In this document: one piece after another, positions 8,123-55,371 of the stretch
Layout: every line of letters begins with the position of its first letter
How positions within the stretch are numbered: the stretch's first letter is position 1
Assembly (NCBI RefSeq): GCF_902788255.1
Contig: NZ_CADAJR010000007.1
Span: forward strand, 1 to 64,000
Length of the DNA: 64,000 nucleotides
Direction: 5' to 3'
Source: an uncultured Methanobrevibacter sp.
GTDB taxonomy: Archaea; Methanobacteriota; Methanobacteria; Methanobacteriales; Methanobacteriaceae
The notes under the pieces: model-generated
What the model was told of the DNA's origin: nothing
Database searches by the model: none
What the model saw: the letters and a program-made list of their open reading frames with translations, nothing else
Program-made: the position numbers and the translations under genes

Positions 8123-8123
8123 T

Positions 8124-11996: not shown

Positions 11997-12002
11997 AAAA
12001 AT

Positions 12003-12423: not shown

Positions 12424-12427
12424 TTTC

Positions 12428-12931
12428 TCACCTATTGTTTTTCCAGTGATAAAGCTTGTTTGAAATGTCCCTTGACGTTTCATTGAACTGGTACTGGCCA
12501 TCATCACCATAACTTGCAAAACTGTGTGACTGTACAAAATCGCCGCATGAGTCTCCAGGCCCGTCGGTTGGATAACCCCTCCTGCAGACCATTCCATGTG
12601 AAGCGCCGTAAGGACTTACGCTCCAGTAGGTGCAGTTGAGACAGATTGAATCTCCATTGTTGACCATTGAATCATAATCAGGTTCCTCAAAATCAAAGTC
12701 ATCATCAAAATCAATATCCTTACTGAAAACCGCACTATCCCTTCTAACATCTTGTGAGCAATAAAAACAAAAGAAATCATCATTTCCAAGGCTTCCCAAT
12801 TCCTCACCACAGTATGGGCATCTTGGAGTGATAACATCATCCTCTCCAAACATTCCGCCACCGCATTCATGGCACAAATAGCCACCGATGACTTCACTCA
12901 ACACCGCACCACACTTAGGACATAACTTCAT
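12428..12931 (-). CDS. Multi-zinc-ribbon protein
   Basis: 167 residues with repeated CxxC knuckles: CPKCGAV, CHECGGG, CPYCGEE and CFYCSQD in the first 60 residues, which suggests two zinc ribbons. Then come an Asp/Glu-rich linker (about 70-90) and a C-terminal segment with CLNCTYW, CRRGYPT and CGDF resembling a further metal site. There is no signal peptide, so it is cytosolic. Zinc-ribbon proteins of this layout often bind nucleic acid or act as adaptors. It directly follows the esterase gene with no gap, so the two share a transcript. Confidence 0.75.
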   Translation of the reverse strand: MKLCPKCGAVLSEVIGGYLCHECGGGMFGEDDVITPRCPYCGEELGSLGNDDFFCFYCSQDVRRDSAVFSKDIDFDDDFDFEEPDYDSMVNNGDSICLNCTYWSVSPYGASHGMVCRRGYPTDGPGDSCGDFVQSHSFASYGDDGQYQFNETSRDISNKLYHWKNNR

Positions 12932-13717
12932 CTAATCGCCTCCAGCCAGTAGATTAATGAATTCCTTGATGTATCGGTCACAGAATTCCCATGTATGTTC
13001 GCCGTCACCCTGTATGAAAGTGGCATCAACATCCCTGGATTTTAAGAATTCATAAAAATCAGTGTTTTTATCAAACAGGAAATCATCCCTGCCGCAGGCC
13101 ATGAAAATGTTCGGAAGATCCTCACAGTTGTCAATCAGGAATTTAGGATCCATATCAGAATTTTTTATTCCATCCAGATTTCCGAAAATTGACTCATAGA
13201 AATCCCTTGAACGCAGAACATTGCTGTCACTTACATAATCGGCAATATCATCGGTTATGAGTGCAGCTGAAATCATCCCTATTTTTGAGAAGTTGTGAGA
13301 GTACTTCAAACCGTTTCTGACAGCCCCATAACCTCCCATTGAAAACCCTGCAATATATGTGTCTTCACGTTTGTGTGACAATGGAAAAATGTTTCTTGTA
13401 ATGTCCAGCAATTCCTGACCTACGTACTCACCATAATATGCATGGGCCTTTTCATTGTCGACGTAGAAACTGTTCTCACCGCAGGGAATCACAATTGCAA
13501 TTCCATGGTCTTCTGCAAATTTCTGAATGGATGTGTTTGCAAGGAATATGTCATCGCTGCCGTAGAGCCCGTGAAGCAGATACAGTGTTTTATATGGCTG
13601 AGGAACGATTTCCTCTGAATCATTAAGGAAATGAATGTTGTCCGCCGGTAAAATCACACTTATTGATGTTCTTCTCTGTAAACTTTTGCACTTGATATCT
13701 CCTCTAAACAGTACCAT
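12932..13717 (-). CDS. Esterase D / S-formylglutathione hydrolase-like alpha/beta hydrolase
   Basis: 261 residues of the putative esterase family. The nucleophile elbow is GFSMGGYGA, the oxyanion-side sequence YLLHGLYGSDD follows the second strand, and the catalytic His is in GDGEHTWEF near the C-terminus, with an Asp in ACGRDDFLF. Members include tributyrin esterases, cinnamoyl esterases and S-formylglutathione hydrolases. No signal peptide is seen, so it is intracellular. In gut methanogens the physiological ester is not known. It sits in the long minus-strand block between the GNAT and zinc-ribbon genes. Confidence 0.85.
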   Translation of the reverse strand: MVLFRGDIKCKSLQRRTSISVILPADNIHFLNDSEEIVPQPYKTLYLLHGLYGSDDIFLANTSIQKFAEDHGIAIVIPCGENSFYVDNEKAHAYYGEYVGQELLDITRNIFPLSHKREDTYIAGFSMGGYGAVRNGLKYSHNFSKIGMISAALITDDIADYVSDSNVLRSRDFYESIFGNLDGIKNSDMDPKFLIDNCEDLPNIFMACGRDDFLFDKNTDFYEFLKSRDVDATFIQGDGEHTWEFCDRYIKEFINLLAGGD

Positions 13718-13725
13718 CTTAACAC

Positions 13726-14136
13726 CTAGTTTTCCAAATCTGTTATGAACAATGGGGATTTGCCGGTCTCATTTTCAAATCCGCAGTATTCATAGAACTT
13801 TACGTTCTTGTTTTCACAAATCACCACTATTCTTAAATAATCATCATAATGCTTTTTAACCCTTTCCACCAATTCCTTTCCAATTCCCTTAAGCTGATAG
13901 TCAGGCTTTACCAACAGATAGTGGATATATGCGTTCATGATGCCATCATCCATTACGCTGATCAGTCCGACCAGATCTTCACCATCCCATGCTGAAAAGA
14001 CTGTATTGAAATTCCTCATCGCTATGACCAGCTTTTCAGGATATTCACCTGAAGACCATTCAACTGACAAAAAAAGATCCTCAAGTTCCTTTTTACTAAA
14101 TTTATGTGTATTCTTATATGTTATTTTAGGTCTCAT
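13726..14136 (-). CDS. GNAT family N-acetyltransferase
   Basis: 136 residues, a minimal GNAT fold. The acetyl-CoA pyrophosphate-binding motif A is YLLVKPDYQLKGIGKELVERV, where the usual Q/R-x-x-G-x-G/A appears as QLKGIG, and it ends with the beta-bulge sequence KFYEYCGFE. The acceptor (protein N-terminus, polyamine or small metabolite) cannot be read from sequence. The ATG at 14136 overlaps the stop of the MATE gene by one base and has GGTGG just upstream, indicating translational coupling. Confidence 0.85.
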   Translation of the reverse strand: MRPKITYKNTHKFSKKELEDLFLSVEWSSGEYPEKLVIAMRNFNTVFSAWDGEDLVGLISVMDDGIMNAYIHYLLVKPDYQLKGIGKELVERVKKHYDDYLRIVVICENKNVKFYEYCGFENETGKSPLFITDLEN

Positions 14137-15491
14137 CAAACCACCCTATATTCTGTCCATTTGTTCGAGAGATATCTGTAAATGTAAATTCCTGCCCTTA
14201 CATACCAGTCGACAAACATTGCGATCCATGTTCCAAAGACTCCCACATTCAACCAGTCCGCAATCACATAGGACAATGCGATTCTGCATGTAAACATTAC
14301 AATCAGACTTATGTACATTACTGTTTTGGAATCTCCCGCCCCTCTGAATGTTGCAGGCACGGTAAATGACAGTGGCCAAATCACTATTGCAAAAACTCCA
14401 TGCCAGAATACCATTTCAGTTGCCATTTGAGCGGTTTGGGCCGAGAGGTTGTAGATTCCCAGAACCCATGGGAAAATCGCAAAAATCACCATGTTGATTA
14501 TGAAATGGGATATGAAAACAATTGCCAAACATTTCTTATTGTAGTATCTTGCCTGTTCATAGTCGTTTGCACCTACACAGTTTGATATTATTGCAGTCAG
14601 ACCTAGATTGATTGCAAAACCTGGCAAAACTGAAAAAATTCCAATAGCATATCCGACTGAATTGGCCGCTATCGCCATTGTTCCGAATGTTGAAACCAGG
14701 CTTAAAATCAATATCCTTCCCAGCTGAAACAAACCGTTTTCAATTCCGTATGGAATGCCGACCTTCAATACCTTTTTAAGCATTGACCTGTCAAATCTGT
14801 GCTTGAATGTCCTTTTGATATGGAGCTTATAGTCTTCATCAGCAACGAAGTACAATACCGCAAGTGCCGCCATAACCCTTGAGATTACTGTCGGAATCGC
14901 AACACCTGTAACGTCCCATCCCAAATGGTAGATGCATATTGCATTTCCTATAACATTCAATACATCACATACAAGCATGATCTTCATGGGAAGGGATGCG
15001 TCATTGGTTGTTCTGAAAATTGCCGCTCCCGCATTATACATTGCAATGAACGGGATTGACAAAGCAACAATATATAGATAAATATCTGCATTGTGCCACA
15101 CATCAGCTTCGATTTGTCCAAAGAGAACGGAAATCAGAACATGCCTTAAAGCAATGACAACAATCATCAGAAGAGTTGACAGGATTGTTGAAAACCATAC
15201 AAGCTGAGTGGCAGAATTTTGTGCCTTATCCAGTTGTTTATCGCCCAAATACTGACCTGCCACAACGGCTCCACCAGTTGCAAGGGCTGAAAATGAAAAA
15301 ATAAGAAACTGCATCAAAAAGTCAACAAGGGAAACTCCTGAAATCGCCGCCTCACCAAGTGATGCAACCATGATTGAATCGGCCAGACCTACAAAGAATT
15401 CCAAGGCATACTCCACCAGCAATGGTAGAAATAGGTAGAGCAGTGCCCTGTTTGAATACAAGTAACCTTCGGGAGTTTTAAATAAATTCAT
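14136..15491 (-). CDS. MATE family multidrug/toxin efflux transporter
   Basis: 451 residues with twelve predicted membrane helices in two six-helix halves, typical of MATE antiporters that export cationic drugs or metabolites with Na+ or H+. The N-terminal half has EYALEFFVGLADSIMVASLGEAAISG and the ATGGAVVAGQYLGDKQLDKA loop characteristic of the family. The downstream GNAT gene is coupled. A second MATE paralogue is encoded at 41206 and is only distantly similar. Substrate unknown. Confidence 0.9.
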   Translation of the reverse strand: MNLFKTPEGYLYSNRALLYLFLPLLVEYALEFFVGLADSIMVASLGEAAISGVSLVDFLMQFLIFSFSALATGGAVVAGQYLGDKQLDKAQNSATQLVWFSTILSTLLMIVVIALRHVLISVLFGQIEADVWHNADIYLYIVALSIPFIAMYNAGAAIFRTTNDASLPMKIMLVCDVLNVIGNAICIYHLGWDVTGVAIPTVISRVMAALAVLYFVADEDYKLHIKRTFKHRFDRSMLKKVLKVGIPYGIENGLFQLGRILILSLVSTFGTMAIAANSVGYAIGIFSVLPGFAINLGLTAIISNCVGANDYEQARYYNKKCLAIVFISHFIINMVIFAIFPWVLGIYNLSAQTAQMATEMVFWHGVFAIVIWPLSFTVPATFRGAGDSKTVMYISLIVMFTCRIALSYVIADWLNVGVFGTWIAMFVDWYVRAGIYIYRYLSNKWTEYRVV

Positions 15492-15494
15492 AAG

Positions 15495-16130
15495 TTATCT
15501 TATAAAGTTGAAAGCAATTTTCGGTTCTTCTTCAGGGACCAGTCCCTCTTTTTTACCGCTTTCAATGCATTTCAGGAAAAATGCCATGTTTCTTCCAAGC
15601 TGTCTCATGGTTGCAAGACCTTCAGCGTCCTGTTCGACCTCTTCGGGAGTGTTTCCATGAACCATGTTCCAATAGAATGATGATACAATCGGCATTTGAC
15701 TAATTCCCAAATATTTATTCAACTGGTCATAAGTTGCGGTTGTTCCTGCACGTCTTGCGGAACATATTACTGAAGCCGGTTTGTGCTTGAATGCCTCACC
15801 GCCGGTTCCATGTGAGTTTGAATAGAATGCCCTGTCCATGAATGCAGTCATGGCTCCGGCAGCTCCCGCATAATATACAGGTGAACCGAATATGAATCCG
15901 TCAGCATCATAGGCTTTTTTCACAAATTCGTTAACTACATCATTGTCGAATGTGCATTCGCCGGTCTCATAACATTTTGAGCAAGCTGTACATCCAATTA
16001 TAGGTTTTGTTCCAATCCAGAATATCTCGGTTTCAATTCCTGCCTCGTTCAATGTCTGTTCAACATAGGTGAGTGCAGTGTAGGTACATCCGTTTTTGTT
16101 TGGACTTCCATTTACAAGCATTACTTTCAT
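15495..16130 (-). CDS. NADPH-dependent FMN reductase / iron-sulfur flavoprotein-like
   Basis: 211 residues from ATG 16130, chosen because GGAGA lies eight bases upstream. Flavodoxin-like fold: FMN phosphate loop VNGSPNKNGCTYTAL, FGSPVYYAGAAGAMTAFMDR around the isoalloxazine, and a cysteine cluster CTACSKCYETGEC, as in the Isf family, which may hold a [4Fe-4S] cluster. Such proteins shuttle electrons between ferredoxin and small acceptors in methanogens. The true start overlaps the end of the apgM gene (2 bp apart), so it is in the same transcript. Confidence 0.85.
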   Translation of the reverse strand: MKVMLVNGSPNKNGCTYTALTYVEQTLNEAGIETEIFWIGTKPIIGCTACSKCYETGECTFDNDVVNEFVKKAYDADGFIFGSPVYYAGAAGAMTAFMDRAFYSNSHGTGGEAFKHKPASVICSARRAGTTATYDQLNKYLGISQMPIVSSFYWNMVHGNTPEEVEQDAEGLATMRQLGRNMAFFLKCIESGKKEGLVPEEEPKIAFNFIR

Positions 16131-16131
16131 T

Positions 16132-17343
16132 TTAATAATCTCCATCAATCAATCTTTGAACTAATAAGTGTCCTTTTTTGAATTCAAGTGAACCTTTTTT
16201 AACGCCCTCTTCATCGAATGATTCACATTCGTCACCTTCACGTTCGGAATCGAAGATGATTATCGGCACATTGTCACGGGTGTGTGTTCCAACGCTTATA
16301 GGGGTTGGATGGTCAGGAAGTATTGCACCTCTAAATTCTTGACCTTTTAAACTTTCGATTATAGGTCCGACTATAAATTCATCAATTCTTTCAATAGCCC
16401 TGACTTTCTCTTCAGTATTTTGAGCATGGCCCGCTTCGTCAGGCGCTTCAATATGAATCAGCAGCAAATCGGTTTCCTTTAATGCATTGATACCATATTC
16501 ACCTTTTTGCTTGTAGTCGGTATCAAAGTATCCGGTTGCTCCAGGAACGTTTACAATATTCATGCCTGCAAAGTTACCGATACCCTTAAGCAAGTCAACA
16601 CCGGTAATTACAGAAGCTGTTATGCCGTAGGTTTCCTCAAAATTAGGCAATTTAGGAGTTACGCCCTGTCCCCAAAGCCATACCATATTTGCAGGAATTT
16701 CCCTTTTCTGGTTGACCTCATGATCCTTGAGGTATTCTCTTGCTTCAAACATTATTTTCTGGATTTCTTCAGCAAGTTCACAATCACCAAATAGGTTATC
16801 AACCAATTTTTCTCCTGAAATATCGTGAGGAGGCATTGTCTTGATGCTTGACAAGATTTTTGCATCCTCCACGCTGTCGCATGAGTAAATGAAGAGGTGT
16901 CTGTAACTTACACCGGTATAAAATTTGCCTTTAAAGTCAGGATACTTTTCGGTGAAATACTCATTTAGCCCTTTCATCAGCTCATCTGCCTCTTCAGTGG
17001 AGATGTGGCCTGCATTGAAGTCATCCATTGAATCGTTTTCACTGAAAATTGTATTGCATCTGAATATTACGTCTTCATGAGATGTAGGAATTCCTTCACT
17101 GCCTGCTTCTAAAGGTCCACGACCAGTATAGAAATCTTCAGGATTGAATCCGAAGATGCTCATATTAGCAACATCTGAACCTGGAGTGTACTGTTCAGGC
17201 ACGTTATTGGTAAATCCTCCAAAACCCATTTTAGCTAATTTGTCTATATTTGGAGTGTTAGCTACCATCAATGGAGTTTTACCGTCCAATTCATCTACAG
17301 GATAATCACTGGAACCATCTGGAATAAAAATTACATATTTCAT
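16132..17343 (-). CDS. apgM: Cofactor-independent phosphoglycerate mutase, archaeal type
   Basis: 403 residues, the usual length. Interconverts 3- and 2-phosphoglycerate without 2,3-bisphosphoglycerate, in gluconeogenesis and glycolysis. It belongs to the alkaline-phosphatase superfamily: metal ligands in IPDGSSDYP at the N-terminus, the phosphoserine site in TPGSDVANMSIFGF, and ligand clusters in IEAPDEAGH and LPDHPTPISVGTHT near the C-terminus. Homologues are sometimes misannotated as phosphonopyruvate decarboxylase. Confidence 0.93.
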   Translation of the reverse strand: MKYVIFIPDGSSDYPVDELDGKTPLMVANTPNIDKLAKMGFGGFTNNVPEQYTPGSDVANMSIFGFNPEDFYTGRGPLEAGSEGIPTSHEDVIFRCNTIFSENDSMDDFNAGHISTEEADELMKGLNEYFTEKYPDFKGKFYTGVSYRHLFIYSCDSVEDAKILSSIKTMPPHDISGEKLVDNLFGDCELAEEIQKIMFEAREYLKDHEVNQKREIPANMVWLWGQGVTPKLPNFEETYGITASVITGVDLLKGIGNFAGMNIVNVPGATGYFDTDYKQKGEYGINALKETDLLLIHIEAPDEAGHAQNTEEKVRAIERIDEFIVGPIIESLKGQEFRGAILPDHPTPISVGTHTRDNVPIIIFDSEREGDECESFDEEGVKKGSLEFKKGHLLVQRLIDGDY

Positions 17344-17366
17344 AGTATCAAAAAAAGTATAAAAAA

Positions 17367-18386
17367 TTAGTATTTTGTTTTTAAAATACTAATTAAGTCA
17401 GTCAACATCGCTGAAGCAGTTTCAAGTGAACCTGCTCCGAGACCAATTACTGAAACTTCATCAGCCAAATCTGTCTTGATTGTAGCCATGTTTAAAGTTC
17501 CGCTTACATCATAGGAACTTCCTCTTTTAACCAAACGAGGAGATACCTGCAAATTATCAGGAGATACTTCAGCTATCAGTTTGATTAAGTAATCATCCTT
17601 TTTGGCAAGCTCAATAGCCTGGGAGTTGATTTTTGAAATACCTTCAACCTTAACGTCGCTATAGGTTGCATCAATACCCAAAAGGGAATTTGCCAAGATG
17701 ACTGTCTTACAGGCTGCGTCAATACCTTCAACATCCTGTGTTGGGTCGGTTTCTGCAATACCCAATTCCTGTGACTCTTTCAAGATCACTTCATATTCTG
17801 AACCTTCAGCAGTCATCCTTGATAGGATATAATTTGTAGTACCGTTTAAAATACCCTTGATTGATTTTATATCACATGAGGAAAGAGTTTCCTTAGTAAA
17901 ATTGATGATTGGCATTGATCCTCCGACACTCGCTTCATACTTGAATTCAACGCCTGCTTTTTCTGCTGCATCAACAACTTCCCTGAATTTTAAAGCCAAA
18001 TGTCCTTTGTTTGAAGTTACTACATCTTTACCTTGTTCAAATGCTTTGAATGTTAATGATAATGCAGGTTCTGCATCAACGATATTAGTAGGAGTTGCTT
18101 CTATAAGACAATCGTATTCAACAGCATCAAGAACATCTGCACCATTAATATCAGACCCGAATTCAGGATATGCAGATAATTTTCCTTCTTCTTTTTTGGT
18201 TTTGACAAGCAATTCTTCATCCAATCCATCTTGAGATATTGCAGATGTAGATGAATCAGCTGCAGCAACAACTTTAACATTGACTCCAGTTTTATCCTTA
18301 ATTAAATCCCTTTTCATGGAAAGTGCATTGGCGACACCTTGGCCAACTGAACCAAATCCCATGATAATAACTCTACATTCATCCAT
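17367..18386 (-). CDS. hom: Homoserine dehydrogenase
   Basis: 339 residues from ATG 18386. It reduces aspartate semialdehyde to homoserine, the branch point for threonine and methionine. The Rossmann motif [13 protein letters not shown] is at the N-terminus, [10 protein letters not shown] is in the substrate region, and the family signature ending [14 protein letters not shown] is present. No C-terminal ACT domain is fused. Instead a separate ACT protein is encoded just upstream (gap of 8 bp), which could confer feedback control. With MetX (22413) and MetY (58276) it supplies the methionine pathway. Confidence 0.92.
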
Positions 18387-45523: not shown

Positions 45524-45931
45524 ATGAAAGTAGCAATCAGATATTACACAAAAACCGGAAATACAAAGAAACTTGCAGAAGCGATAGGCTCTGCAATCAA
45601 TGTAGAAGCAAAAACAGTAGATGAACCTTTAACCGAAGATGTAGACATCCTATTTTTAGGAAGTGCTGTTTATGCTGCTGGAATTGACTCCGCAATCAAA
45701 GATTTCATAGCAAACATTAATGTAAATGTCGGTGAAGTCGTCAATTTCTCATCAGCGGCATTACTTGAGTCAACCTACGGACAGGTCAAAAAACATGTCG
45801 AAGCTAAAGGAATCAAAATGAGTGAAGATGAATTCCACTGCAGAGGAGCATTTAAACTAGTCCACAGAGGAAGACCAAATGAAAAAGATTTAAAAGATGC
45901 ACAAGAATTTGCAAAAAGAATAATCAATTAA
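45524..45931 (+). CDS. Flavodoxin family protein
   Basis: 135 residues. The N-terminal RYYTKTGNTKKLAEAI is a flavodoxin FMN phosphate loop and IDILFLGSAVYAAGIDSAIKDF is the second flavin-binding segment. Compared with long-chain flavodoxins it is short. It carries electrons in anaerobic metabolism. A TATA-like AAATTTAAATAAC is 35 bp upstream. Its last codons overlap the convergent membrane-protein gene. Confidence 0.85.
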   Translation: MKVAIRYYTKTGNTKKLAEAIGSAINVEAKTVDEPLTEDVDILFLGSAVYAAGIDSAIKDFIANINVNVGEVVNFSSAALLESTYGQVKKHVEAKGIKMSEDEFHCRGAFKLVHRGRPNEKDLKDAQEFAKRIIN

Positions 45932-46731
45932 TTTTTCTTATTCTTTTTAACCAATTCTTCAAGCCTGTCAAAGTCATTATTGACACGTTTCATTACGATT
46001 GCAACGGTTAATGTTGCAGTAGCCACACCGGACAAAATAAAACCACTCCAAACCAGAATTAATGAATTTAGTTTACCGACACTGCTATTACCTAAAACCG
46101 CATAACCATTACTTGTAAATGCATTAGATGCCATGACAAGGGCATCCAACGGAGATACATCTTCAACAAACGCAGTGAATATGAAACTGACAAATACTAT
46201 TATAAACAATAACATTATTGTTATTCCCAAACTGTTTGTTTCAGTATAGTTGATGAATTTATCGTAATAAACTTTAATGAAGTACAGGAATGCTAAACTG
46301 TGACATATATCCAGAGGATAAACAAATGATCCTGAAAATATCACCATAGCTATGGAATTAAATGGAACCAATAAAAACAACAGCAGCCATTTGGTTTTAC
46401 CTGAACTTTTATTGATGCCAATTGCAAGATAAGCTGAAAGAAGTATATCAAAAACAACCAATGTGAAAGTCACATCCCTCCAATACACTATAAGGTATAG
46501 GAAGTTCAACACAAATAGCACAATCATTGTCAGATAATAAATTTGTCTGATTTCAGTTGCCTGTTCCTCCGGAAAATACTCTTCAAGGTGGAACAGTCTA
46601 AAAGAATTGAAGCGTTCGGAAGCCTTGAGCTTGTTGGATGCGAATTTAAGAACCTTGCACAGAATAGTAAAAACTATAATTGCAACAACAAAGTCAATCG
46701 CTGTCATTAAAATAAAAATTGTATTATCCAT
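45928..46731 (-). CDS. Multi-spanning ion-channel-like membrane protein (paralogue 2)
   Basis: 267 residues, paralogous to the upstream gene across its length. About seven hydrophobic segments. Near the C-terminus LDALVMASNAFTSNGYAVLG resembles the pore loop of 2-TM potassium channels (pore helix, then T-x-G-Y-G), followed by an SGVATATLTVAIV helix like the inner pore helix. The filter reads T-S-N-G-Y-A, so the second glycine is missing. A short charged coiled-coil (RVNNDFDRLEELVKKNKK) ends it. It overlaps the upstream paralogue by one base. Ion selectivity is unknown. Confidence 0.75.
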   Translation of the reverse strand: MDNTIFILMTAIDFVVAIIVFTILCKVLKFASNKLKASERFNSFRLFHLEEYFPEEQATEIRQIYYLTMIVLFVLNFLYLIVYWRDVTFTLVVFDILLSAYLAIGINKSSGKTKWLLLFLLVPFNSIAMVIFSGSFVYPLDICHSLAFLYFIKVYYDKFINYTETNSLGITIMLLFIIVFVSFIFTAFVEDVSPLDALVMASNAFTSNGYAVLGNSSVGKLNSLILVWSGFILSGVATATLTVAIVMKRVNNDFDRLEELVKKNKKN

Positions 46732-47519
46732 TATTCACCACTCTCCCCTTCAATTATTTTTTCAAGTTCTTCAACTCTTTTATTAAAGTGCCTGATCAGT
46801 ATCGCAGCCGTTAATGTAGCAGTACCTGCACCGGAGATAATATAACCTCCCCATACCAAAAATAAACTATTCAATTTACCAGGAATTGTTTTTCCCAAAA
46901 CAGTATATCCATTACTTGTAAATGCATTTGACACCATTACAAGTGAATCAAGTGCATTGACATGTTCTGCAAATTGTGTAATGAAAAAACTGATAAATAT
47001 TATTGAAAACAAGAGAATTACAGCCAATCCTAAACCGTTAGAAGTAGTATATTCTCTGAATTTATCAAAATAGTATTTAATAAAGTAAAGGAATATGAAT
47101 ACATGGATAATATCAAGCAAGCTGATCAAAGTAAATCCAAACAGCATATAAGTTAAGGATCCAAATGGAACCAACAACAAAAAGAGAATTTTACCTTTGA
47201 TTGAAGTTTTATCCAAAGTTACCGCAATAAACAATGAAAGTAATATATCGAATATTACAATATAAAGTACATCATCCACCACAAATGTCAAAGTATAAAT
47301 AATGATGATAAATGACAATGCCATCATGATTAGATAAAACATCTGTTTTAATGAGTGTATCTCCCCTTCCGGCAAAAATTCATGAGGATTTAAATATCTA
47401 TTTGAACTAGATTTTATTTTTTTATGAATAAACATACCAATTACTGTTAAAATAGTAAAAATTATAATTTCCACGATTAACTGAAAAATCGGTTGATTTA
47501 TAATATCCGCCACATTCAT
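46731..47519 (-). CDS. Multi-spanning ion-channel-like membrane protein (paralogue 1)
   Basis: 262 residues. Hydrophobic segments at about 11-31, 57-80, 83-102, 109-130, 132-150 and 161-183, a pore-loop-like stretch at 187-209 (ALDSLVMVSNAFTSNGYTVLG) and a last helix at 214-242. Residues 201-206 are T-S-N-G-Y-T where potassium channels have T-V-G-Y-G-D. The fourth segment has no arginine ladder, so it is not voltage-gated in the usual way. The C-terminus is a short coiled coil (NKRVEELEKIIEGE). Its overlap with the second copy suggests a heteromeric complex. Confidence 0.75.
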   Translation of the reverse strand: MNVADIINQPIFQLIVEIIIFTILTVIGMFIHKKIKSSSNRYLNPHEFLPEGEIHSLKQMFYLIMMALSFIIIIYTLTFVVDDVLYIVIFDILLSLFIAVTLDKTSIKGKILFLLLVPFGSLTYMLFGFTLISLLDIIHVFIFLYFIKYYFDKFREYTTSNGLGLAVILLFSIIFISFFITQFAEHVNALDSLVMVSNAFTSNGYTVLGKTIPGKLNSLFLVWGGYIISGAGTATLTAAILIRHFNKRVEELEKIIEGESGE

Positions 47520-47653: not shown

Positions 47654-47686
47654 TAAAAAAAAGAGTGAATGACTATTTCATTCACT
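47654..47686 (-). terminator. Stem-loop and T-tract ending the HD-RyR / kinase unit
   Basis: AGTGAATGA (47664-47672) and TCATTCACT (47678-47686) form a perfect 9-bp stem with a CTATT loop; on the minus strand a T8 run follows at about 47655-47662. It lies 60 bp after the stop of the HD-RyR gene, marking the 3' end of the signalling unit. Confidence 0.7.
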
Positions 47687-47745
47687 TTAAACTATTTTTA
47701 GTCAAATTTTAATAATAACAGATTAGATTTAAAAATGATTTTTAG

Positions 47746-49995
47746 TTAATTTTTAACAATCTTTAAACCTACATTTCTGCATAAATCCGGAAGGTTTCTG
47801 AATGTGTGAATATTGGCGTCTTTTTTTGCATATTCAAGGTCATCCCAATCAACTAGATTAGGATTGGTTTTCATATCATCATCACGAACAGTACCATATT
47901 TCCAGCCCATATTTATTTTGAGTTTATACCATCCCTCATGTTCCCTTTGAGCCAAATAGTTAAGGGAATCATTATCAAAAGTGGATATTGCCACACCGGG
48001 TTCCTCAATGTCAACCATATCATAACCGAGTTCAGCCAATATTTTGACCAGATAGTCCGTCTGCTTATAATTTGAATACTTGATATAGTTCGGCAGTTTA
48101 TCAAACTCCACTGCATCATTTTCCTGTGAGTATAGCTTATGCATTTCAAATGTCAGCATTCTTGTTTTGGTTGTGACTATTTTCAGCCCAACAGATTCAA
48201 CTAACTTTGGAATGTTTTTTACAGGGTCAATATCATATTGCTGTATTTCAGGAGGCAATTCCTCCCATGGCACCATATAGTTATGGATAAGATTTTCATC
48301 ATCACGAACAGGACCATATCTCCAACCGGTGCCTATTTTTTCTTCCCACCATTCGTCATGTTCCATTATTGCCAAATCAAGGATTTCTTCATCTGTAAAT
48401 TCTTTAATTTCCTTACGCTCATCGGAGATATTAGCCAATTCACATCCTATTTTGCGCAATTTTTTAGGAATTGATTTTGCCTGACGGAAATTTGCAATCT
48501 TTAATTGAGGAGATAACTCTTCAAAGGAAGGTAAATTTTCATATTTTTGTATTAAATCTTCATCTTCCTCACCATTGGCCAACATTTCCTCATACTGTGC
48601 TGTAGTAGTGTCAATATATTGTTGATGGATCTGTCTGGCTAATTTTTCAATATTTCTAAGCAAGGTACTAGGTTTTTGAGCATCTTCCTTATCAAATTCC
48701 CTCATGACACTGGTGTCCTGTTCAAGCCTGATTAATACAGATAACCCTCTTTGGAATACACTACGGATGGACAATACATTATTCAGCAACTCTTCTTTAT
48801 CTTCAGAAAATCCAATACCCATTCCACCATCATGAACAATATAGTCAACATCCAGACGGGTGTTATCAATCTTCAATTCCAGTTCGTTTACATGGCTTCT
48901 TTTTTTATCAATAACACCGCGAGGTACACGATTCCACTCCTGAAGCTCATCGCACAAAATCAATAGATATGCCAATGGAGAATCATTCGGATGAAGAGAT
49001 GATAAATTGAATGGTTTTTTCTGCAGGACCTTGTTATAATAATTATGTAACAGAATAGCTGTTGCACTGTCTACAATCGGATAGAAAAAGAAATCATGAT
49101 TTTTGGCATACTTTTGAATCAGATATCCATAGGAATTCAAAACAAGGATTGATGAGAAAAATCCATGGTCTATAAATCCATTTTCACCCATGACATCAAT
49201 AAACTTATCCAAATGTCTGGCAACATCATCGACATTGACTTTAGGAAAATCGACCGCTATTTTGTGAGCCATAATATCTGTTGGCTTAAATAGATCTAAA
49301 AATTTGGCTTTCGGATACACTTCAGTGTAATTGTCCGCAAAATCAGACTCTATTTTAATTAAAGTATTAAATTCATTGAAATCTTTAAAATCAACAGCAG
49401 TGTCAGCACCATACCTTCCTGAAATTGACTTTACACTATCATTGATAAATTTATTCAATTGTTTACCTATAATCTCTACAGGATATCCTATATCATGGAA
49501 AAGAGATGCAATACCCCAACGATATAAAAATTCCTCATTTGAAAACTCACCATCAATCATATAATATTTATTATAAGGACTTTTAATAATATAATCCATG
49601 AAAGCTTCACGATAAATACTGTTCTGTGAATAAACAGCCAATCCCAAAAGGAACACGTTTACTGAATGGATGAAATGATCCCTTTGTCTTTCAATCAAAT
49701 CACCAGTGCCCTTTTCGTATTTATGCATTATGTCAACCAAATCCAATAGTGTATTCGGTTCGCTGACAATGCTCTTATCGGTGACCTTGTCTGATTTATT
49801 TTCTGAAGTGATTTGATAAATCATGAAAAATGTTTCATAAATCTCACGTGCATTATATTCTGTTTCATTATCTAAAAAAACATCAATACATGCTTTTAAT
49901 AATCCTTTATAGTCATGCCCATTATAATAATCATCATATAAAACCAATTGATTGAAGAAATCATCAACATAGCTTTTTAAATTATTTTCAACCAT
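47746..49995 (-). CDS. HD-domain protein with two RyR-type modules
   Basis: 749 residues. The N-terminal part (about 95-360) carries an HD phosphohydrolase signature: His107/His110, His167-Asp168 in SLFHDIGYP, and Asp349 in LCDELQEW. From about 454 on there are two copies of the extended RyR module: the first half is IHQQY...SPQLKIANFRQAKSIPKKLRKIG (454-520) and MHKLY...YIKYSNYKQTDYLVKILAELG (618-657); the second half is EHDEWWEEKIGTGWRYGPVRDD (545-565) and EHEGWYKLKINMGWKYGTVRDD (685-706), each ending VGLKIV. Prokaryotic RyR domains are thought to bind nucleotide-derived ligands. HD domains hydrolyse phosphoesters. The kinase gene is upstream. Confidence 0.82.
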   Translation of the reverse strand: MVENNLKSYVDDFFNQLVLYDDYYNGHDYKGLLKACIDVFLDNETEYNAREIYETFFMIYQITSENKSDKVTDKSIVSEPNTLLDLVDIMHKYEKGTGDLIERQRDHFIHSVNVFLLGLAVYSQNSIYREAFMDYIIKSPYNKYYMIDGEFSNEEFLYRWGIASLFHDIGYPVEIIGKQLNKFINDSVKSISGRYGADTAVDFKDFNEFNTLIKIESDFADNYTEVYPKAKFLDLFKPTDIMAHKIAVDFPKVNVDDVARHLDKFIDVMGENGFIDHGFFSSILVLNSYGYLIQKYAKNHDFFFYPIVDSATAILLHNYYNKVLQKKPFNLSSLHPNDSPLAYLLILCDELQEWNRVPRGVIDKKRSHVNELELKIDNTRLDVDYIVHDGGMGIGFSEDKEELLNNVLSIRSVFQRGLSVLIRLEQDTSVMREFDKEDAQKPSTLLRNIEKLARQIHQQYIDTTTAQYEEMLANGEEDEDLIQKYENLPSFEELSPQLKIANFRQAKSIPKKLRKIGCELANISDERKEIKEFTDEEILDLAIMEHDEWWEEKIGTGWRYGPVRDDENLIHNYMVPWEELPPEIQQYDIDPVKNIPKLVESVGLKIVTTKTRMLTFEMHKLYSQENDAVEFDKLPNYIKYSNYKQTDYLVKILAELGYDMVDIEEPGVAISTFDNDSLNYLAQREHEGWYKLKINMGWKYGTVRDDDMKTNPNLVDWDDLEYAKKDANIHTFRNLPDLCRNVGLKIVKN

Positions 49996-50049
49996 TATAA
50001 CACCTTAAAGCTAATTAATTAAATTTCTTAAAATCATAATATTTAAATA

Positions 50050-50184
50050 TTATTTTATAATTTTTTTCAAAGATTTCATGACCTGTTTGAATTCTAATGG
50101 TGAATCCAAATCAAGAAATTCATCCTCATCAGTCCTATTTAAAACAACAGTATTTTTTATCAAATCTGATTCCTTCATAAGCAT
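50050..50184 (-). CDS. Candidate 44-residue protein coupled to the kinase gene
   Basis: MLMKESDLIKNTVVLNRTDE, then DEFLDLDSPLEFKQVMKSLKKIIK. The ATG is two bases after the TAG stop of the kinase-Hsp70 gene, a typical coupling distance. The product is acidic in the middle and has a Lys-rich C-terminal helix. It has no recognised family. It is too short to exclude chance, but the position between kinase and HD-RyR genes and a second in-frame ATG at 50178 favour expression. Confidence 0.45.
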   Translation of the reverse strand: MLMKESDLIKNTVVLNRTDEDEFLDLDSPLEFKQVMKSLKKIIK

Positions 50185-50186
50185 CA

Positions 50187-53100
50187 CTATCTAACGTTAG
50201 ACCTTTCATCAAGTTCCCAAAGCAATTCCACAATCTCAAACAGTCTCATATAATCATTTTCATTCAATGCATCCTGGGCATTTTTAAATAAACTCTCAGC
50301 CAACTGCTCATTGTTGATGAAAATTCCATCAAGTTTCAAGCTGAAATAGCACTGCCTTATTACATCATTTCTGTTTAAGGCCACATACTCTCCAATAAGT
50401 CTGTTGTAAACTTCCCTTAATTTATCAAGGTCCTTATTTTTTATAATTTCATCAATGTCCCCAATTTCAAATAGATTATTCCTTTCAATAACCTCAATTT
50501 TTTGTTTTACATTTTCCAAAAGCATTGAATATTCAAGATTGCCTTTTGCATCCTCAACCAACGCATTTAAATAATCAATGTAAATTTCACACTGTCCAAT
50601 TGCAATATCGTCTCTTCTTGCGATTTCCAACAGCATTTCAATATAATCCTGAACCTCTCTCCCATCAAATGTTGAGTAATCATTAATATACTCGATTTCT
50701 TTAATCATCCTTGAGTATTTCTCCATAATCTGATGTGAATTTAACGTAGTTTTTAAGTCAAATTCCTTATTGAAGTACGGAATATAAATTTTATTGCCAT
50801 GAATGACTGATGGTGACCTTTCATCCATCTTAACGGATTTGCCTTTATTATGGACCATGACATCATATTTTAAGTCTTCAATTTTAACTTTAAAGTTTCC
50901 GTCAATGCCTAAAGGAACTTCAATCATGCCATTTTCATTTTTAAACGATATAGAGTAACCTAAAAATGCGGATTTCAGGTCTTTTGAAAATACCTTTCCA
51001 ATAATATGATTATTATTCCTTGAAAAAATCACAGAAAGAGGTTCTCTTTTGATTTCCACATCATGTTTTTCAATGCTTCCCGCATAAATTGCCGCACCTT
51101 GGGATACAACGGTCAACGGATTTATGGTTGACTCAATTTCAATTTCAAATTCATCCCTAATGCATTCCTGTATAATAGGACTTAATGAAGAACCACCAAC
51201 AAGGATAATCTTTTCAATGTCTCCATCATTAAATGAATTATCATCTAAGAGGTTTCTAGACATTTTAAATGTATGTTCTACTAAAGGCGCAATGATTTGT
51301 TTAAGTTCCTCTCTTTCCAAGGTATACTTAAAGTCATAACCATCAAAAAGATTTGAGATGGATATATCTGCCACATCATCATTAGTCAGGTCTTTTTTGA
51401 TTGCTTCAGCAGCATTCTTGAGTTTGACAAAAGAAGAAATATATTTAGGATTGTCATTTCTGAAATCATCAAGATTCAAATCTTGAACTATTTTTGGCTT
51501 GAATAGCTCGTTTACAATCCTCCAGTCCAATGAATTTCCACCGAAACTCTCCAAACCGTCTGTCGCAAGAAGTTCACATTCCCCGTTGATACTGCGAATC
51601 AGACTAACGTTGAATGTCGCACCACCCCAATCATAAATCATCCAAATGCCATTTCGATTATCCAAACCATATGCAAGAGAAACCGCAACAGGTTCCAAAA
51701 TAAGTGGATGTGACCTCAGTCCCGCAAGGTCTGCAGCCTCATTGACGGCTCTTGTTTTGAGAGGATTCGAATTTGCAGGCACACAGATGACTGCATCTTC
51801 AATAATTACTCCAATATCAATATAGGCTGAAAGTCTCATGTCATTTAAAACTATAGCAGACAATTCCTCCGGAAACATAACCCTTGAAGATTTTTTAAAT
51901 CTGAACGGAACTGAAAATCCCATATTGTATTTAAATTCAGAAACAGCATTATCATCATTTTTAAGAATGGCATCCCTTGCACCGGCACCCACTTCAATAT
52001 TGTCCTCATCATCCATCAGCACGGCCGAAGGTGTGAATTCCTCTCCAGTACGATGATTTTTGATTATTAAAGGAGTTCCATTATTGAAATATGCAAGAAC
52101 GGAATCTGTTGTACCAAGATCAATTGCATAATCGACAGTGCTAGCCTTTACTTCACTTGAATGTCTGAAATGCATTTTCATGTTCTGTTTCCACAGTGAC
52201 AGTTTGTATTCATACTTTCGTCTTACATTTCTATCACAAACTACGGCAAATTCCATAAGATTGGCACCTGAAAGCAAATCATTTGAATTTATAAGACGAA
52301 TTGCCTCTACAACAATTTCCTCAATTGAATACGTCTTAAGTGCAGGAATTAGGTTTTCATAGATTCTTCTGATTTCATCACTTGAATCCATAAGGTTTTC
52401 AAGAAGCGATACTGATTTAAATAAGCTTTTATGACTTTCCAGACCAATAAAAATCTCCCACAAATCAATGTAATCATTATATCTGCTTTTTATAGATGGA
52501 TTGTATGCAATTGCTTCTTTTAATAAATCACATGCCAAATTATAGTTTTTAGCTTTTAAATTTACAGTGAATGCCTTGGAAATTAATTTTAAATCAGGTT
52601 TTTCAGATTTCCACATCCTTAGGGTTTCCGAATAATATCTTCTGATATCATAATCCTTAAGGATTTCCCTTTCCAAAATCTCAATAGCCACTCCCAAACC
52701 ATTTTCACATTTTGCCAAATCCAATGCCTTTTTTACGGAATCATTAATCACATAATCATTATACTCATCAAGATACTCATCGAAATGATTATCATCTGCA
52801 ACAACCTGTTTTGATTTATACACATCGATTGCATTTTCAACATCATTTAAAAGATCACCAGCATCAATATACCTTAAAGATGAATCCACTTCAAGACATT
52901 TGAGAACTATCCTATCCAAATCCTGAGAAACCTTATTGTTATAATAGCTAGGAGGTTTCAATTCTTCTTGCCAAGGTTTTAAATCAATCAGTTCCTCATT
53001 TGTATACTTGTCAACATCATAAGGATAGCAATTGGTAAGCAATTGATAGAACATGACCCCTACCGCATAGACGTCACTACCTGTTGAAACGGATTTGTTG

Positions 53101-53705
53101 AAAATTTCAGGAGCCATGAACGGTCTTGTGCCGGCAATGTCAATGTCTGAGATACCCGTTGTGACCGCCTTTGCAAAACCAAAGTCGGAAATCTTAATTA
53201 CAATGTCTCCAGATGAATTAAAACTCAACAGAACATTCTTCGGTTTCAAATCACGGTGAACGATAGGCGGGTTTGCAGAATGTAAAGTGTTAAGTCCCAT
53301 TAAAATCTGTTTTATCAAGTCAAGACTTCGCCCAACCGGCATGAACATGTCATTTTGAATAAATGAATTCAGAAATTCCTCCAAGTCTCCTCCGGACACA
53401 TACTCCATAACAAAATAGGCATGACTTTTTCCATCCTCAAAATCAGTTATTTCAGCAGCATCATAGATGCTTATGATATTTTCATGCCTCAAATGAGAGG
53501 CCAGGGTGACCTCACTAAAAATTTCTTTTTTATTGGTGGATATGTTTAACGGCTCCTTAACGATTTTTATGGCCATCAAGGTATCCAAATAGTTATGGTT
53601 TACTAAATAAACCTTTGCAAATGATCCTTCTCCCAGAAATTTTTTAACTTCAAATTTTCCATTGAAAAATTTCTCAATTAAGTGTTTTGCCTTATCTAAA
53701 CACAC
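50187..53705 (-). CDS. Serine/threonine kinase fused to an Hsp70-type ATPase domain
   Basis: About 1172 residues from a GTG at 53705, preceded by GGTGG at five bases; TTG 53717 and GTG 53714 are also in frame. Residues about 16-290 form a eukaryotic-type kinase: glycine loop LGEGSFAKVYLV, Lys47 in MAIKIV, HRDLKPKN at 150-157, DFG at 174-176, APE at 198-200. A helical linker of TPR-like units (about 325-510) leads to an actin/Hsp70 ATPase domain (about 525-890): YAIDLGTTDSVLAYF, IYDWGGATFNVSL (phosphate-2 loop with Ala and Asn changes) and ILVGGSSLSPIIQE. The last 280 residues are beta-rich then helical. Cytosolic. Confidence 0.88.
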   Translation of the reverse strand: MCLDKAKHLIEKFFNGKFEVKKFLGEGSFAKVYLVNHNYLDTLMAIKIVKEPLNISTNKKEIFSEVTLASHLRHENIISIYDAAEITDFEDGKSHAYFVMEYVSGGDLEEFLNSFIQNDMFMPVGRSLDLIKQILMGLNTLHSANPPIVHRDLKPKNVLLSFNSSGDIVIKISDFGFAKAVTTGISDIDIAGTRPFMAPEIFNKSVSTGSDVYAVGVMFYQLLTNCYPYDVDKYTNEELIDLKPWQEELKPPSYYNNKVSQDLDRIVLKCLEVDSSLRYIDAGDLLNDVENAIDVYKSKQVVADDNHFDEYLDEYNDYVINDSVKKALDLAKCENGLGVAIEILEREILKDYDIRRYYSETLRMWKSEKPDLKLISKAFTVNLKAKNYNLACDLLKEAIAYNPSIKSRYNDYIDLWEIFIGLESHKSLFKSVSLLENLMDSSDEIRRIYENLIPALKTYSIEEIVVEAIRLINSNDLLSGANLMEFAVVCDRNVRRKYEYKLSLWKQNMKMHFRHSSEVKASTVDYAIDLGTTDSVLAYFNNGTPLIIKNHRTGEEFTPSAVLMDDEDNIEVGAGARDAILKNDDNAVSEFKYNMGFSVPFRFKKSSRVMFPEELSAIVLNDMRLSAYIDIGVIIEDAVICVPANSNPLKTRAVNEAADLAGLRSHPLILEPVAVSLAYGLDNRNGIWMIYDWGGATFNVSLIRSINGECELLATDGLESFGGNSLDWRIVNELFKPKIVQDLNLDDFRNDNPKYISSFVKLKNAAEAIKKDLTNDDVADISISNLFDGYDFKYTLEREELKQIIAPLVEHTFKMSRNLLDDNSFNDGDIEKIILVGGSSLSPIIQECIRDEFEIEIESTINPLTVVSQGAAIYAGSIEKHDVEIKREPLSVIFSRNNNHIIGKVFSKDLKSAFLGYSISFKNENGMIEVPLGIDGNFKVKIEDLKYDVMVHNKGKSVKMDERSPSVIHGNKIYIPYFNKEFDLKTTLNSHQIMEKYSRMIKEIEYINDYSTFDGREVQDYIEMLLEIARRDDIAIGQCEIYIDYLNALVEDAKGNLEYSMLLENVKQKIEVIERNNLFEIGDIDEIIKNKDLDKLREVYNRLIGEYVALNRNDVIRQCYFSLKLDGIFINNEQLAESLFKNAQDALNENDYMRLFEIVELLWELDERSNVR

Positions 53706-53734
53706 ATAAACCACCAATTAGATTAAAAATCTAA

Positions 53735-54538
53735 TCAAAATGAACAATAAATAACTGCAGCACCATTTCCCTTGGATAATTTTAAAAATGAATTCGCATT
53801 GAGTTTTTTGGCAACTCCTATCGGAACTTTTTTATCTCCTATAAATGTTCCATTGGAACTTCCCTCATCAAGAATATACCATCCATCTTCCTTGTAGAAC
53901 AATTTTAAATGAGGTTTTGCAACATTGGAAACTGTTGAATACTTATTGTCCAAAAGTATTGTAAATGATGCCAAATCACTAGCATTAAAATTGGCCTTAC
54001 GCCCAATCAGCACGGTTTCATCCTTGTGAACCTTGAATGTTTTACCCTTATCTATTCCATTGAATATGGTTAAAACACAGTGCTGACCATCGGAAAACCT
54101 TTGGTTGGATTTATATAAATCAAAGAAAGTTAAAAGTTCATCTGATAAAAAGCTCACATCCAAAAACAGATCCTCAAATGCATCTTCCTTTAATGTAAAA
54201 CCCTTTACACTTCTGCGGCCGATTTTGTTTGGCACCTCCTTTTTGACGGCAACCTCCTCAATCAGTTCAGCTTCAACTAGTTGCTTTAAATGCTGACCCA
54301 GCATCTGAGTAGTGATATTAACATTATAGTTATTTAAAAGAATAGAATTGATTTCACGGGAATATAATGGCTCCTTTTTAAATGCACCATCCTTTGTTTT
54401 ATTGGTCTTCTCAAAATCCCTTAAAATTTCCAATATTGAAAATCTAACCTTATTATTGACTGCTGCTAATTTAGTAGATAGTATTCCTGACTCTGATGAA
54501 TCAAGAATCACTGTTTTTACTGTCCTTAAATCACTCAT
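53735..54538 (-). CDS. Winged-helix / FHA-domain protein
   Basis: 267 residues. Residues about 20-115 form a winged helix of the ArsR/DtxR-like kind (KVRFSILEILRDF, ITTQMLGQHLKQLVEAELIEE, then IGRRSVKGFTLKE). Residues about 160-262 are an FHA domain: VLIGRKANFN (GR), SNVAKPHLKLF (S-x-x-x-x-H region), WYILDEGSSNGTFIGDKKV. FHA domains bind phosphothreonine. The gene lies 18-30 bp upstream of the kinase start on the same strand, so the kinase probably phosphorylates a partner or this protein, which then alters promoter binding. Confidence 0.87.
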   Translation of the reverse strand: MSDLRTVKTVILDSSESGILSTKLAAVNNKVRFSILEILRDFEKTNKTKDGAFKKEPLYSREINSILLNNYNVNITTQMLGQHLKQLVEAELIEEVAVKKEVPNKIGRRSVKGFTLKEDAFEDLFLDVSFLSDELLTFFDLYKSNQRFSDGQHCVLTIFNGIDKGKTFKVHKDETVLIGRKANFNASDLASFTILLDNKYSTVSNVAKPHLKLFYKEDGWYILDEGSSNGTFIGDKKVPIGVAKKLNANSFLKLSKGNGAAVIYCSF

Positions 54539-54571: not shown

Positions 54572-55371
54572 TTAAATTGAACTGCTTAAAACATCATGAT
54601 AAGATTTTAAATCTTTTTCACGTAGATTTAATTTATGCATCAACTCGCTGACCAATGCATCAAGCAACACTAAAGCGGACAATTCAAAAGCAGTGCCCAT
54701 CAATATCAATTCCAATGGACGGTAAATGTTACTAATTCCCCTAATTTCTGCTGGCAATTCATTGACTGCATTCCAAACAGAATTACTTGATAAATCTGCA
54801 GATTTTTTAGGAAGATTATCGATTTTAGATCTTATTTCCTCATCACTTTCAAAGTTAACCAAACTTCTAGGCATACCCTCCATGAACTTTTCAACATCAC
54901 TGTCTTCGAGATTGACGAGGGTTTGAGGAAGAGAATCGATGACAATGCGTGCATCAGCCTTTTGTGCAAGTTCAGATTCAGTATTGCCACATACAGCCAA
55001 AAATTTAACATTGTCCAATTTGGAATCCTCAACTATTTGTGTAATGGAGTTAGATTTACCTGATTTTGAAACAATGATAATGATATCCCATCATTTACAG
55101 GAGGGGCAATTGTTTCATTGAATACATATGCATAAAATCCCAGATGCATCAATCTCATTGCAAAAGCCTTTGCCACAAATCCTGACCTTCCGGCACCAGC
55201 GAGAAATATAGATTTTTTTCTTTTGCTGGACACTCTTTTATATGAAGCCGTTAGGATAATATCCCTAAATTGAGCAATACTTTCTTCCTGATTTTCAATA
55301 ACGCTTTTACAGTTGTTCAAGTTTTTTAATATTTCATCCAAGGACAAACCCATGTATTTTAATTCAGACAT
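54572..55371 (-). pseudogene. SIS-domain (6-phospho-3-hexuloisomerase-like) gene with a frameshift
   Basis: Two segments in different frames form one SIS protein of about 266 residues. The first (55371 to about 55090) is [15 protein letters not shown]... ending in [19 protein letters not shown] and APPVNDG. The continuation begins in the next frame as [16 protein letters not shown] and runs to PLELILMGTAFELSALVLLDALVSELMHKL, the C-terminal helix of HxlB-like isomerases. One base is missing at about 55088-55089 (GATGG then GATATC). The middle contains an extra 65-residue insertion (SLPQTLVNLEDSDVEKFMEG). Real mutation or sequencing error cannot be told. Confidence 0.75.

Follow-up and report, generated by a model that had tools for sequence, protein, structure and literature searches.

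A gene block of kinase-Hsp70, FHA regulator and HD-RyR protein, conserved and apparently undescribed, suggests a stress or immune signaling pathway in gut methanogens

A gene block encoding a winged-helix-FHA regulator, a Ser/Thr kinase fused to Hsp70, a very small protein and an HD-RyR protein is conserved in gut methanogens; its components are of known kinds, and their combination appears to be undescribed. The copy analyzed here lies in a window of 64,000 nucleotides from an uncultured Methanobrevibacter sp. (contig NZ_CADAJR010000007.1). The first-pass annotation had proposed a candidate undescribed signaling system at this site, and conservation and linkage across congeneric genomes support that proposal in part. 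A check of the ORFs in the window confirms all four genes on the minus strand (wHTH-FHA, 53735-54538; kinase-Hsp70, 50187-53717; small ORF, 50050-50187; HD-RyR, 47746-49995), and Pfam recovers FHA, Pkinase, HSP70 and two RyR stretches. The features are as follows.

45928-47519, minus strand: two paralogous membrane proteins 3' of the terminator; frequent neighbors, probably not core
47664-47686, minus strand: stem-loop (9-bp stem) followed by a T tract, terminator-like, 3' of HD-RyR
47746-49995, minus strand: HD-RyR protein, 749 aa (Pfam; AF2 pLDDT 85.5)
47758-47991, minus strand: RyR domain 2, residues 669-746 (H686, W689; Asp position occupied by N728)
48166-48393, minus strand: RyR domain 1, residues 535-610 (H546, W549, K553, R564, H571, D588)
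48931-49698, minus strand: HD-like metal-dependent hydrolase region, residues 100-355 (H107, H110, H167-D168, H277, H317, D349)
50050-50178, minus strand: small conserved protein, 42 aa, motif TVVLN...FLDL with invariant Thr
50187-53705, minus strand: Ser/Thr kinase-Hsp70 fusion, probably initiated at GTG 53705 (ORF 50187-53717, 1176 aa, beginning with TTG 53717)
50211-51038, minus strand: beta-sandwich and helical region, residues 894-1169, resembling an Hsp70 substrate-binding domain (AF2 secondary structure; Foldseek)
51075-52124, minus strand: Hsp70 nucleotide-binding domain, residues 532-881 (Pfam HSP70, E 6e-65)
52128-52790, minus strand: alpha-helical linker, residues 310-530, peculiar to this kinase family (all-helical in AF2; genome scans)
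52869-53654, minus strand: kinase domain, residues 22-283 (Pfam Pkinase, E 6e-53)
53735-54538, minus strand: winged-helix and FHA regulator, 267 aa (Pfam FHA, E 1.6e-7; HxlR-like HTH, E 0.007; alignment of 23 homologues)
54572-55371, minus strand: gene of SIS type (6-phospho-3-hexuloisomerase-like), broken into two frames; in most relatives intact and directly upstream of FHA

Among 60 congeneric genomes the kinase-Hsp70 fusion occurs in 19, and the distribution of the block within the genus is patchy. The FHA gene accompanies the fusion in 19/19 genomes, consistent with the partnership of FHA protein and kinase claimed earlier, and HD-RyR co-occurs with it in 18/19 (hypergeometric P ~8e-9, a value not corrected for phylogeny); conservation of the block is far above chance. 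The FHA, kinase-Hsp70 and small ORF genes are contiguous in all 18 readable fused loci, and HD-RyR lies side by side with the fusion in 16 of 19 readable loci. HD-RyR is separable: 7 of the 25 genomes with HD-RyR carry no kinase, and three fused loci (L042, L047, L048) have no neighboring HD-RyR, so that the separation of genes in other genomes, which the first-pass annotation had named as evidence against its proposal, is found in part. Related genera contain rows of unfused FHA, kinase and Hsp70 genes in the same order (L191, L196, L205), from which the small ORF is missing. The stem-loop and T tract reported at the end of the block were recovered; such sites are only slightly more frequent than in shuffled sequence.

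A PPP/calcineurin-type phosphatase gene, overlooked in the earlier annotation, separates the small ORF from HD-RyR in 12 of the 16 fused loci where the latter is adjacent. Most relatives have this phosphatase as a member of the block; the copy in the window has lost it, and a paralogue is found elsewhere in the genome. The pair formed by the phosphatase and HD-RyR is also found away from the kinase (L195, L124). The two membrane proteins were ruled out as a core part, their family being present in 51/60 genomes. RtcB/RlaP RNA-repair genes are frequent neighbors in relatives and are not universal, and for this reason an RNA-repair role was not adopted.

In relatives the kinase begins at the codon corresponding to GTG 53705 of the window copy. 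The kinase is of Hanks type and is predicted to be active, as the first reading had it, since the glycine loop (GEGSFAKV), the VAIK-type lysine (AIKI), HRDLKPKN, DFG and APE are all kept; a supported kinase clade (99/97) was obtained, and confidence of the AF2 model is low in the kinase region (mean pLDDT 66). Within the phylum, 29 of 152 genomes contain the helical linker, and every one of these belongs to a single family; a scan of 291 genomes of one bacterial class gave one marginal match; among the genomes so scanned, the fusion therefore looks confined to Methanobacteriaceae. The catalytic residues of the Hsp70 half were compared with the organism's own DnaK and with stand-alone paralogues. 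Equivalents of DnaK D8, K70, E171, D194 and T199 are kept in the fused copies; the remaining member of the ATPase residue set, D201, is Asn in the window copy, N/H/S/T among fused copies and Asp in the stand-alone paralogues, and because of this loss the Hsp70 half is named an Hsp70-like sensor rather than an active chaperone. The two-domain Hsp70 fold appears to be present, with the substrate-binding domain predicted from the model, for which Foldseek returned alignments of ~630-670 columns to near full-length DnaK/BiP.

The small ORF had been described as a coupled gene of 44 residues. It exists and is conserved at all 18 readable fused loci, but the start used in relatives matches ATG 50178 of the window, 8 bp past the kinase stop, and gives 42 residues rather than the longer window ORF (50050-50187). 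Judged by this conservation, it is a genuine gene and not filler. A conserved Thr-x-[VIL]-[LIV] motif is common to the small protein and the N-terminus of the FHA protein, where it reads KTVILD, with Thr9 near-invariant among the 23 aligned homologues; in the small protein the motif Thr is T13 when residues are counted from GTG 50187. The motif looks like an FHA ligand, and since the two proteins share it the small protein probably serves as the substrate of a phospho-switch and as a ligand of the FHA domain, the substrate reading being drawn from the pattern alone. The FHA domain itself has intact GR (Arg) and NGT motifs and keeps the His of SxxH, the Ser of which is replaced by Ala; near relatives have Gly or Ala at this position, and the majority of the 23 homologues have Ser.

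Of the HD and two RyR modules previously assigned to the fourth protein, the RyR domains match Pfam PF02026 (E 1.6e-28). Pfam gives no HD match on the window protein, but PF01966 is matched by 8 of 60 homologues (best E 8e-4), and the metal-site residues H107/H110, H167/D168, H277, H317 and D349 are conserved in 58-60 of the 60, which points to the metal site of the HD superfamily (H...HD...D). Foldseek returned the RyR part only, the RyR repeats dominating, and the HD fold had no structural match. In RyR domain 1, H546 is conserved in 60/60, W549 in 59/60 and D588 in 58/60 homologues. The adenine-stacking Trp W549 and the basic phosphate contacts K553 and R564 are counterparts of ATP-contacting residues in animal R12, which binds ATP and ADP (PMC12627627). 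By alignment offset from an ungapped match to PDB 35tm, H546/W549/D588 correspond to H75/W78/D117 of phage RyDEP, the equivalent of D117 falling 4 residues beyond the scored alignment. RyDEP is an RyR-domain protein whose His/Asp dyad cleaves cyclic ADP-ribose immune signals (2'/3'cADPR), most phage homologues binding the signal without cleaving it (2026 preprint, PMC13232231). RyR domain 1 therefore seems to retain the residues used by RyDEP for cADPR cleavage, and glycosidase activity is putative; the nucleotide-handling role first suggested for HD-RyR is supported. HD-RyR shares the family PF02026 with RyDEP and differs from it in being cellular, joined to an HD domain and provided with two RyR copies, the second without the Asp.

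The reading preferred here, held tentatively and at somewhat less than an even chance, is a phospho-relay that is gated by a chaperone, is tied to an HD hydrolase able to sense nucleotides and serves stress or antiviral signaling. The Hsp70 half would act as a sensor, holding or releasing the kinase according to its client- or nucleotide-bound state; the released kinase would phosphorylate the motif Thr of the small protein, that of the FHA protein's N-terminus, or both, and the FHA domain would bind the phosphothreonine, whether presented by the small protein or by its own tail, with altered promoter binding as the result. The phosphatase would reset the switch, its loss in the window copy perhaps being made good by the paralogue. 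HD-RyR would be the metabolic arm. Its RyR pair would bind an adenine nucleotide, the likeliest ligand being a signal of ADP-ribose type from TIR proteins, and its HD domain would hydrolyze a phosphoester, acting as an effector that the ligand switches or else removing the signal. The gene neighborhoods and TIR fusions of HD-RyR relatives, described below, count in favor of this reading too. Sensing role, substrates, ligand and direction of regulation are in this scheme inferred from gene identities, conservation, linkage and catalytic and ligand residues, which are observed. Counted against the relay are the missing phosphatase and adjacent TIR in the window copy, the genomes with HD-RyR and no kinase, the Ser-to-Ala change in SxxH, the unmatched HD fold and the low pLDDT over the kinase.

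An antiviral conflict system, in which HD-RyR is a killing or dormancy effector triggered by cyclic ADP-ribose from TIR proteins elsewhere and the kinase-Hsp70, FHA and small proteins set its expression or threshold, is considered rather unlikely. The block as a whole resembles no known defense system, as first stated, but the statement fails for HD-RyR, whose relatives occur in neighborhoods typical of conflict systems: bacterial homologues adjoin TIR, TIR-LRR, NACHT-WD40 and SLOG-like/DUF4231 genes, and TIR-HD-RyR fusions exist among archaeal relatives. The same genome also has a paralogous cluster of TIR, ClpB, kinase, Hsp70 and phosphatase, and Clover offers a precedent for a defense HD nucleotidase ruled by nucleotide signals (PMC12265719). 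However, NCBIfam and PADLOC gave the block generic kinase and Hsp70 names only, PADLOC reporting no defense model beyond generic kinases; conservation is strong, with linkage to housekeeping-type RtcB/SIS genes, and patchiness, otherwise suggestive of defense, also fits niche adaptation. Thoeris loci combine the TIR protein ThsB with a ThsA-type effector, and since the window block contains no TIR it is not classed as Thoeris. Searches of phage, plasmid and IMG/VR sequences found no mobile-element or phage context; a viral, phage or plasmid origin was rejected, as IMG/VR contained no relative of the kinase-Hsp70 protein, phages gave no FHA match and plasmids gave no HD-RyR. Two weak HD-RyR relatives were seen, one in phages (27.6% identity) and one in IMG/VR (25%).

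An energy or proteotoxic stress regulator without immune role, in which RyR senses ATP/ADP, Hsp70 senses unfolded protein and stress-gene transcription is tuned through the relay, would accord with the R12-like residues, the substrate-binding-domain-like region and the RNA ligase RtcB beside the block in many relatives; it is judged improbable, since a plain energy sensor would not be expected to occur repeatedly with TIR and SLOG-like genes, as HD-RyR does. That two modules (FHA, kinase-Hsp70 and small ORF versus phosphatase and HD-RyR) are merely co-located in a genomic island has a similarly low probability, for the HD-RyR genomes without kinase, the three fused loci without HD-RyR and the lone phosphatase-HD-RyR pairs agree with it but the near-constant company of fusion and HD-RyR does not.

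In the PknG-GarA/OdhI switch, the phosphorylated N-terminal Thr can be bound by the FHA protein's own FHA domain. Like this actinobacterial switch, the block pairs a Ser/Thr kinase having a helical C-terminal scaffold with an FHA protein bearing a phosphorylatable N-terminal Thr (PMC8546545, PMC5448819); unlike it, the block equips its FHA protein with a domain for DNA binding, joins the kinase to Hsp70 and repeats the motif on a second, very small protein. The threonine-phosphorylation pathway of type VI secretion (PpkA-PppA-Fha) likewise unites kinase, PP2C phosphatase and FHA reader at one locus, whereas the block lacks secretion genes, has a PPP/calcineurin-like phosphatase and adds Hsp70 and HD-RyR. 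TIR/SLOG/STAND nucleotide conflict systems, including Thoeris, are linked to it by the HD-RyR homologues that adjoin or fuse to TIR and adjoin SLOG-like genes, but the block has neither TIR nor SLOG gene and is controlled by kinase-Hsp70 and FHA instead. The bacterial, GTPase-centered HSP70-GrpE-DnaJ conflict systems of Kaur et al. 2020 share the recruitment of Hsp70 to operons of conflict type, in some cases together with kinase and phosphatase, whereas a kinase-Hsp70 fusion, FHA regulator and RyR do not figure in the portions of that account considered here (PMC7159879).

The block suggests an undescribed stress or immune signaling pathway in archaea, where Ser/Thr kinase pathways are poorly known, and it brings together a trio rarely found in combination: sensing by a chaperone, eukaryote-like phosphorylation that an FHA protein reads, and an RyR-domain enzyme. 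Binding and cleavage of TIR-made immune nucleotides by phage RyR domains were demonstrated only in 2026 (PMC13232231), and the cellular RyR-HD family, widespread near TIR/NLR-like genes, makes host RyR domain function directly testable; the common Thr motif offers a cheap and sharp peptide-binding test of a phospho-switch in archaea. At its most far-reaching, and as a whole improbable, the block may be an archaeal pathway akin to innate immunity: a kinase gated by Hsp70 would act by way of a phospho-switch protein of 42 residues and an FHA transcription factor to arm a cellular RyR-HD enzyme that reads or destroys cyclic ADP-ribose, HD-RyR then being a downstream part common to TIR-LRR, NACHT-WD40, SLOG and kinase-Hsp70 systems of both bacteria and archaea.

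All four minus-strand genes claimed by the first-pass annotation are present on C7, the window's contig (in a genome of 2.2 Mb and 69 contigs), and the stem-loop with a T tract that it had placed downstream of HD-RyR was located as well:

53735..54538, minus strand, winged-helix FHA protein (regulator)
50187..53705, minus strand, kinase-Hsp70 fusion
50050..50178, minus strand, small protein
47746..49995, minus strand, HD-RyR protein
47664-47686, stem-loop with T tract

Pfam supports the kinase, Hsp70, FHA and two RyR domains. Because starts were set by alignment to relatives (kinase-Hsp70, GTG at 53705; small protein, ATG at 50178), the gaps are ~29 bp from FHA to kinase, ~8 bp from kinase to small protein and ~54 bp from small protein to HD-RyR; no phosphatase gene lies in this last interval in the window copy. 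At 54572-55371 a gene resembling SIS-type 6-phospho-3-hexuloisomerase is split between two frames (intact in relatives), reflecting either a pseudogene or an assembly error. At 45928-47519 lies a paralogous membrane protein pair, widespread in the genus, that has no Pfam match and conserves a pore-loop-like SNAFTSNGYTVLG stretch.

Of 60 congeneric genomes, 19 carry the fusion (two more hold remnants), 21 the FHA protein and 25 HD-RyR. The first-pass annotation proposed a test of co-occurrence; here the FHA protein is found in 19/19 fusion genomes (hypergeometric P 1e-13) and HD-RyR in 18/19 (P 8e-9), both values ignoring shared descent and incomplete assemblies. Across the 152 genomes of the phylum, only one family has FHA, HD-RyR or the kinase-specific helical linker. 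Gene order was read from 29 loci of the genus and a further 20 spread over it and related genera; it is usually RtcB, SIS isomerase, FHA, kinase-Hsp70, small protein, phosphatase, HD-RyR (one to four copies per locus) and two membrane proteins. Pfam assigns the phosphatase to the calcineurin (PPP) type, judged by a homologue from the paralogous cluster described below and by the copy at locus L195. All 18 readable fused loci (two found by motif only) have FHA, kinase-Hsp70 and small protein side by side, and an adjoining HD-RyR is present in 16 of 19.

Three genomes from related genera (L191, L196, L205) encode kinase and Hsp70 separately, in neighbouring genes behind the FHA gene. FHA-linked kinases, split and fused, form one clade in the kinase-domain tree (99/97), apart from the kinases of a second system, which contains ClpB. 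Nested in the fused clade are two kinase-only relatives of 369-385 aa (L060, L061), accompanied by an FHA gene and the membrane pair, which apparently lost the Hsp70 half. TIR-rich islands in a related genus (L190-L193, L200) hold several diverged wHTH-FHA regulator copies. Another contig of the window's genome, C15, bears a second cluster, of a type conserved in several relatives:

L007 (C15), 5780-17611, chaperone-kinase cluster: TIR-repeat protein, ClpB-like AAA protein, kinase, 545-aa protein, GrpE-like protein (weak match, E 0.012), Hsp70, TPR protein, PPP phosphatase

One possible origin of the fusion is a set like this one, pared down to its kinase and Hsp70 with the two fused.

The kinase domain has its full set of catalytic motifs, and the Hsp70 part retains the equivalents of D8, K70, E171, D194 and T199. 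The D201 equivalent is Asn in the window, Asn, H, S or T across fused copies, and Asp in stand-alone paralogues; with D201 changed, ATP hydrolysis should be slower, and nucleotides should still bind. The AlphaFold model, built on a shallow alignment, is of modest quality (pLDDT 66); it shows a beta-sandwich and helices at residues 894-1169, and in Foldseek the chain can be aligned with DnaK and BiP over >600 columns, so a substrate-binding-like region is likely, and the protein may sense unfolded protein.

Strong conservation in 17 aligned small proteins is limited to T-[VIL]-[VIL]-L-N and FLD. The FHA protein has T-x-[VIL]-[LIV]-[DN] in its N-terminal part, with the Thr present in at least 95% of the 23 sequences compared, and carries a further T[VIL][VIL]L copy within the FHA domain; of ~20 proteins encoded in or next to the two clusters, only the small and FHA proteins contain T[VIL][VIL]L. 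FHA domains are known to favour a hydrophobic residue at the Thr+3 position. From these motifs we propose that the small protein and the FHA N-terminus would serve as phospho-Thr ligands of the FHA domain, in trans and in cis, respectively, a binding likened to GarA/OdhI. In the window the domain keeps its Arg and NGT, with the SxxH Ser replaced by Ala, which makes phosphate binding less certain. Split loci and kinase-only loci lack the small protein.

HD-RyR gives a good model (pLDDT 85.5), and its RyR pair matches animal R12 domains, including nucleotide-bound forms, in Foldseek. HD metal-site residues are almost invariant across 60 archaeal and bacterial homologues, eight of which match the HD model. 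Animal R12 binds AMP-PCP and ADP via Trp881, Arg885 and Arg896 (PMC12627627), equivalent to W549, K553 and R564. The RyR-domain chain of PDB 35tm, probably the phage cADPR glycosidase or sponge RyDEP (PMC13232231), aligns ungapped to residues 545-584; through it RyDEP residues map to H546, W549, H571 and D588, the last four residues past the scored end. Of the 60 homologues, 58-60 share H546, W549 and D588; position 571 is mostly Ser or Thr. In the second RyR domain, Asn takes the place of the Asp.

The components are of known kinds; the literature searched yielded no kinase-Hsp70 fusion combined with FHA, a small putative switch protein and HD-RyR. Beside the observed gene identities, conservation, linkage and key residues we place, at somewhat less than even probability, a phospho-relay combined with a nucleotide-handling HD-RyR. 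Hsp70 state would gate the kinase, whose targets would be the small protein and the tail of the FHA regulator; this regulator would alter transcription, and a phosphatase, in the window strain perhaps the C15 paralogue, would reset the relay. HD-RyR would bind an adenine or ADPR-type nucleotide and hydrolyse a phosphoester. The pathway may serve either defence or the control of stress.

HD-RyR homologues keep the company of nucleotide conflict systems. Among 84,980 species genomes, single-RyR homologues occur in Clostridia, Chloroflexi and Actinomycetota (mostly 35-43% identity), with one in Thermoplasmata (30%). TIR and TIR-LRR proteins lie directly downstream at L126, L130, L131, L133, L152 and L156; other neighbours are DUF4062-NACHT-WD40 proteins (L115 and relatives elsewhere), a kinase-LRR protein (L149) and, at L138, L139, L143 and others, proteins that match only DUF4231 and that we take, from a sequence motif, to be SLOG-like. 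Three further proteins are:

L119, 6937-8778, TrkA_N (RCK-like) and RyR protein adjoining HD-RyR, Chloroflexi-type (Anaerolineales) bacterium
L038, 437-3649, archaeal TIR-HD-RyR fusion, 1070 aa
L190, 3843-7133, archaeal TIR-HD-RyR fusion, 1096 aa

An immune-like working, in which the Hsp70-gated kinase, via small protein and FHA, would arm an RyR-HD enzyme reading or destroying cyclic ADP-ribose signals, is unlikely. Across L115-L160, where bacterial single-RyR HD proteins stand beside these TIR, TIR-LRR, NACHT, kinase-LRR and DUF4231 membrane proteins, they are a possible shared component of several NLR-like systems.
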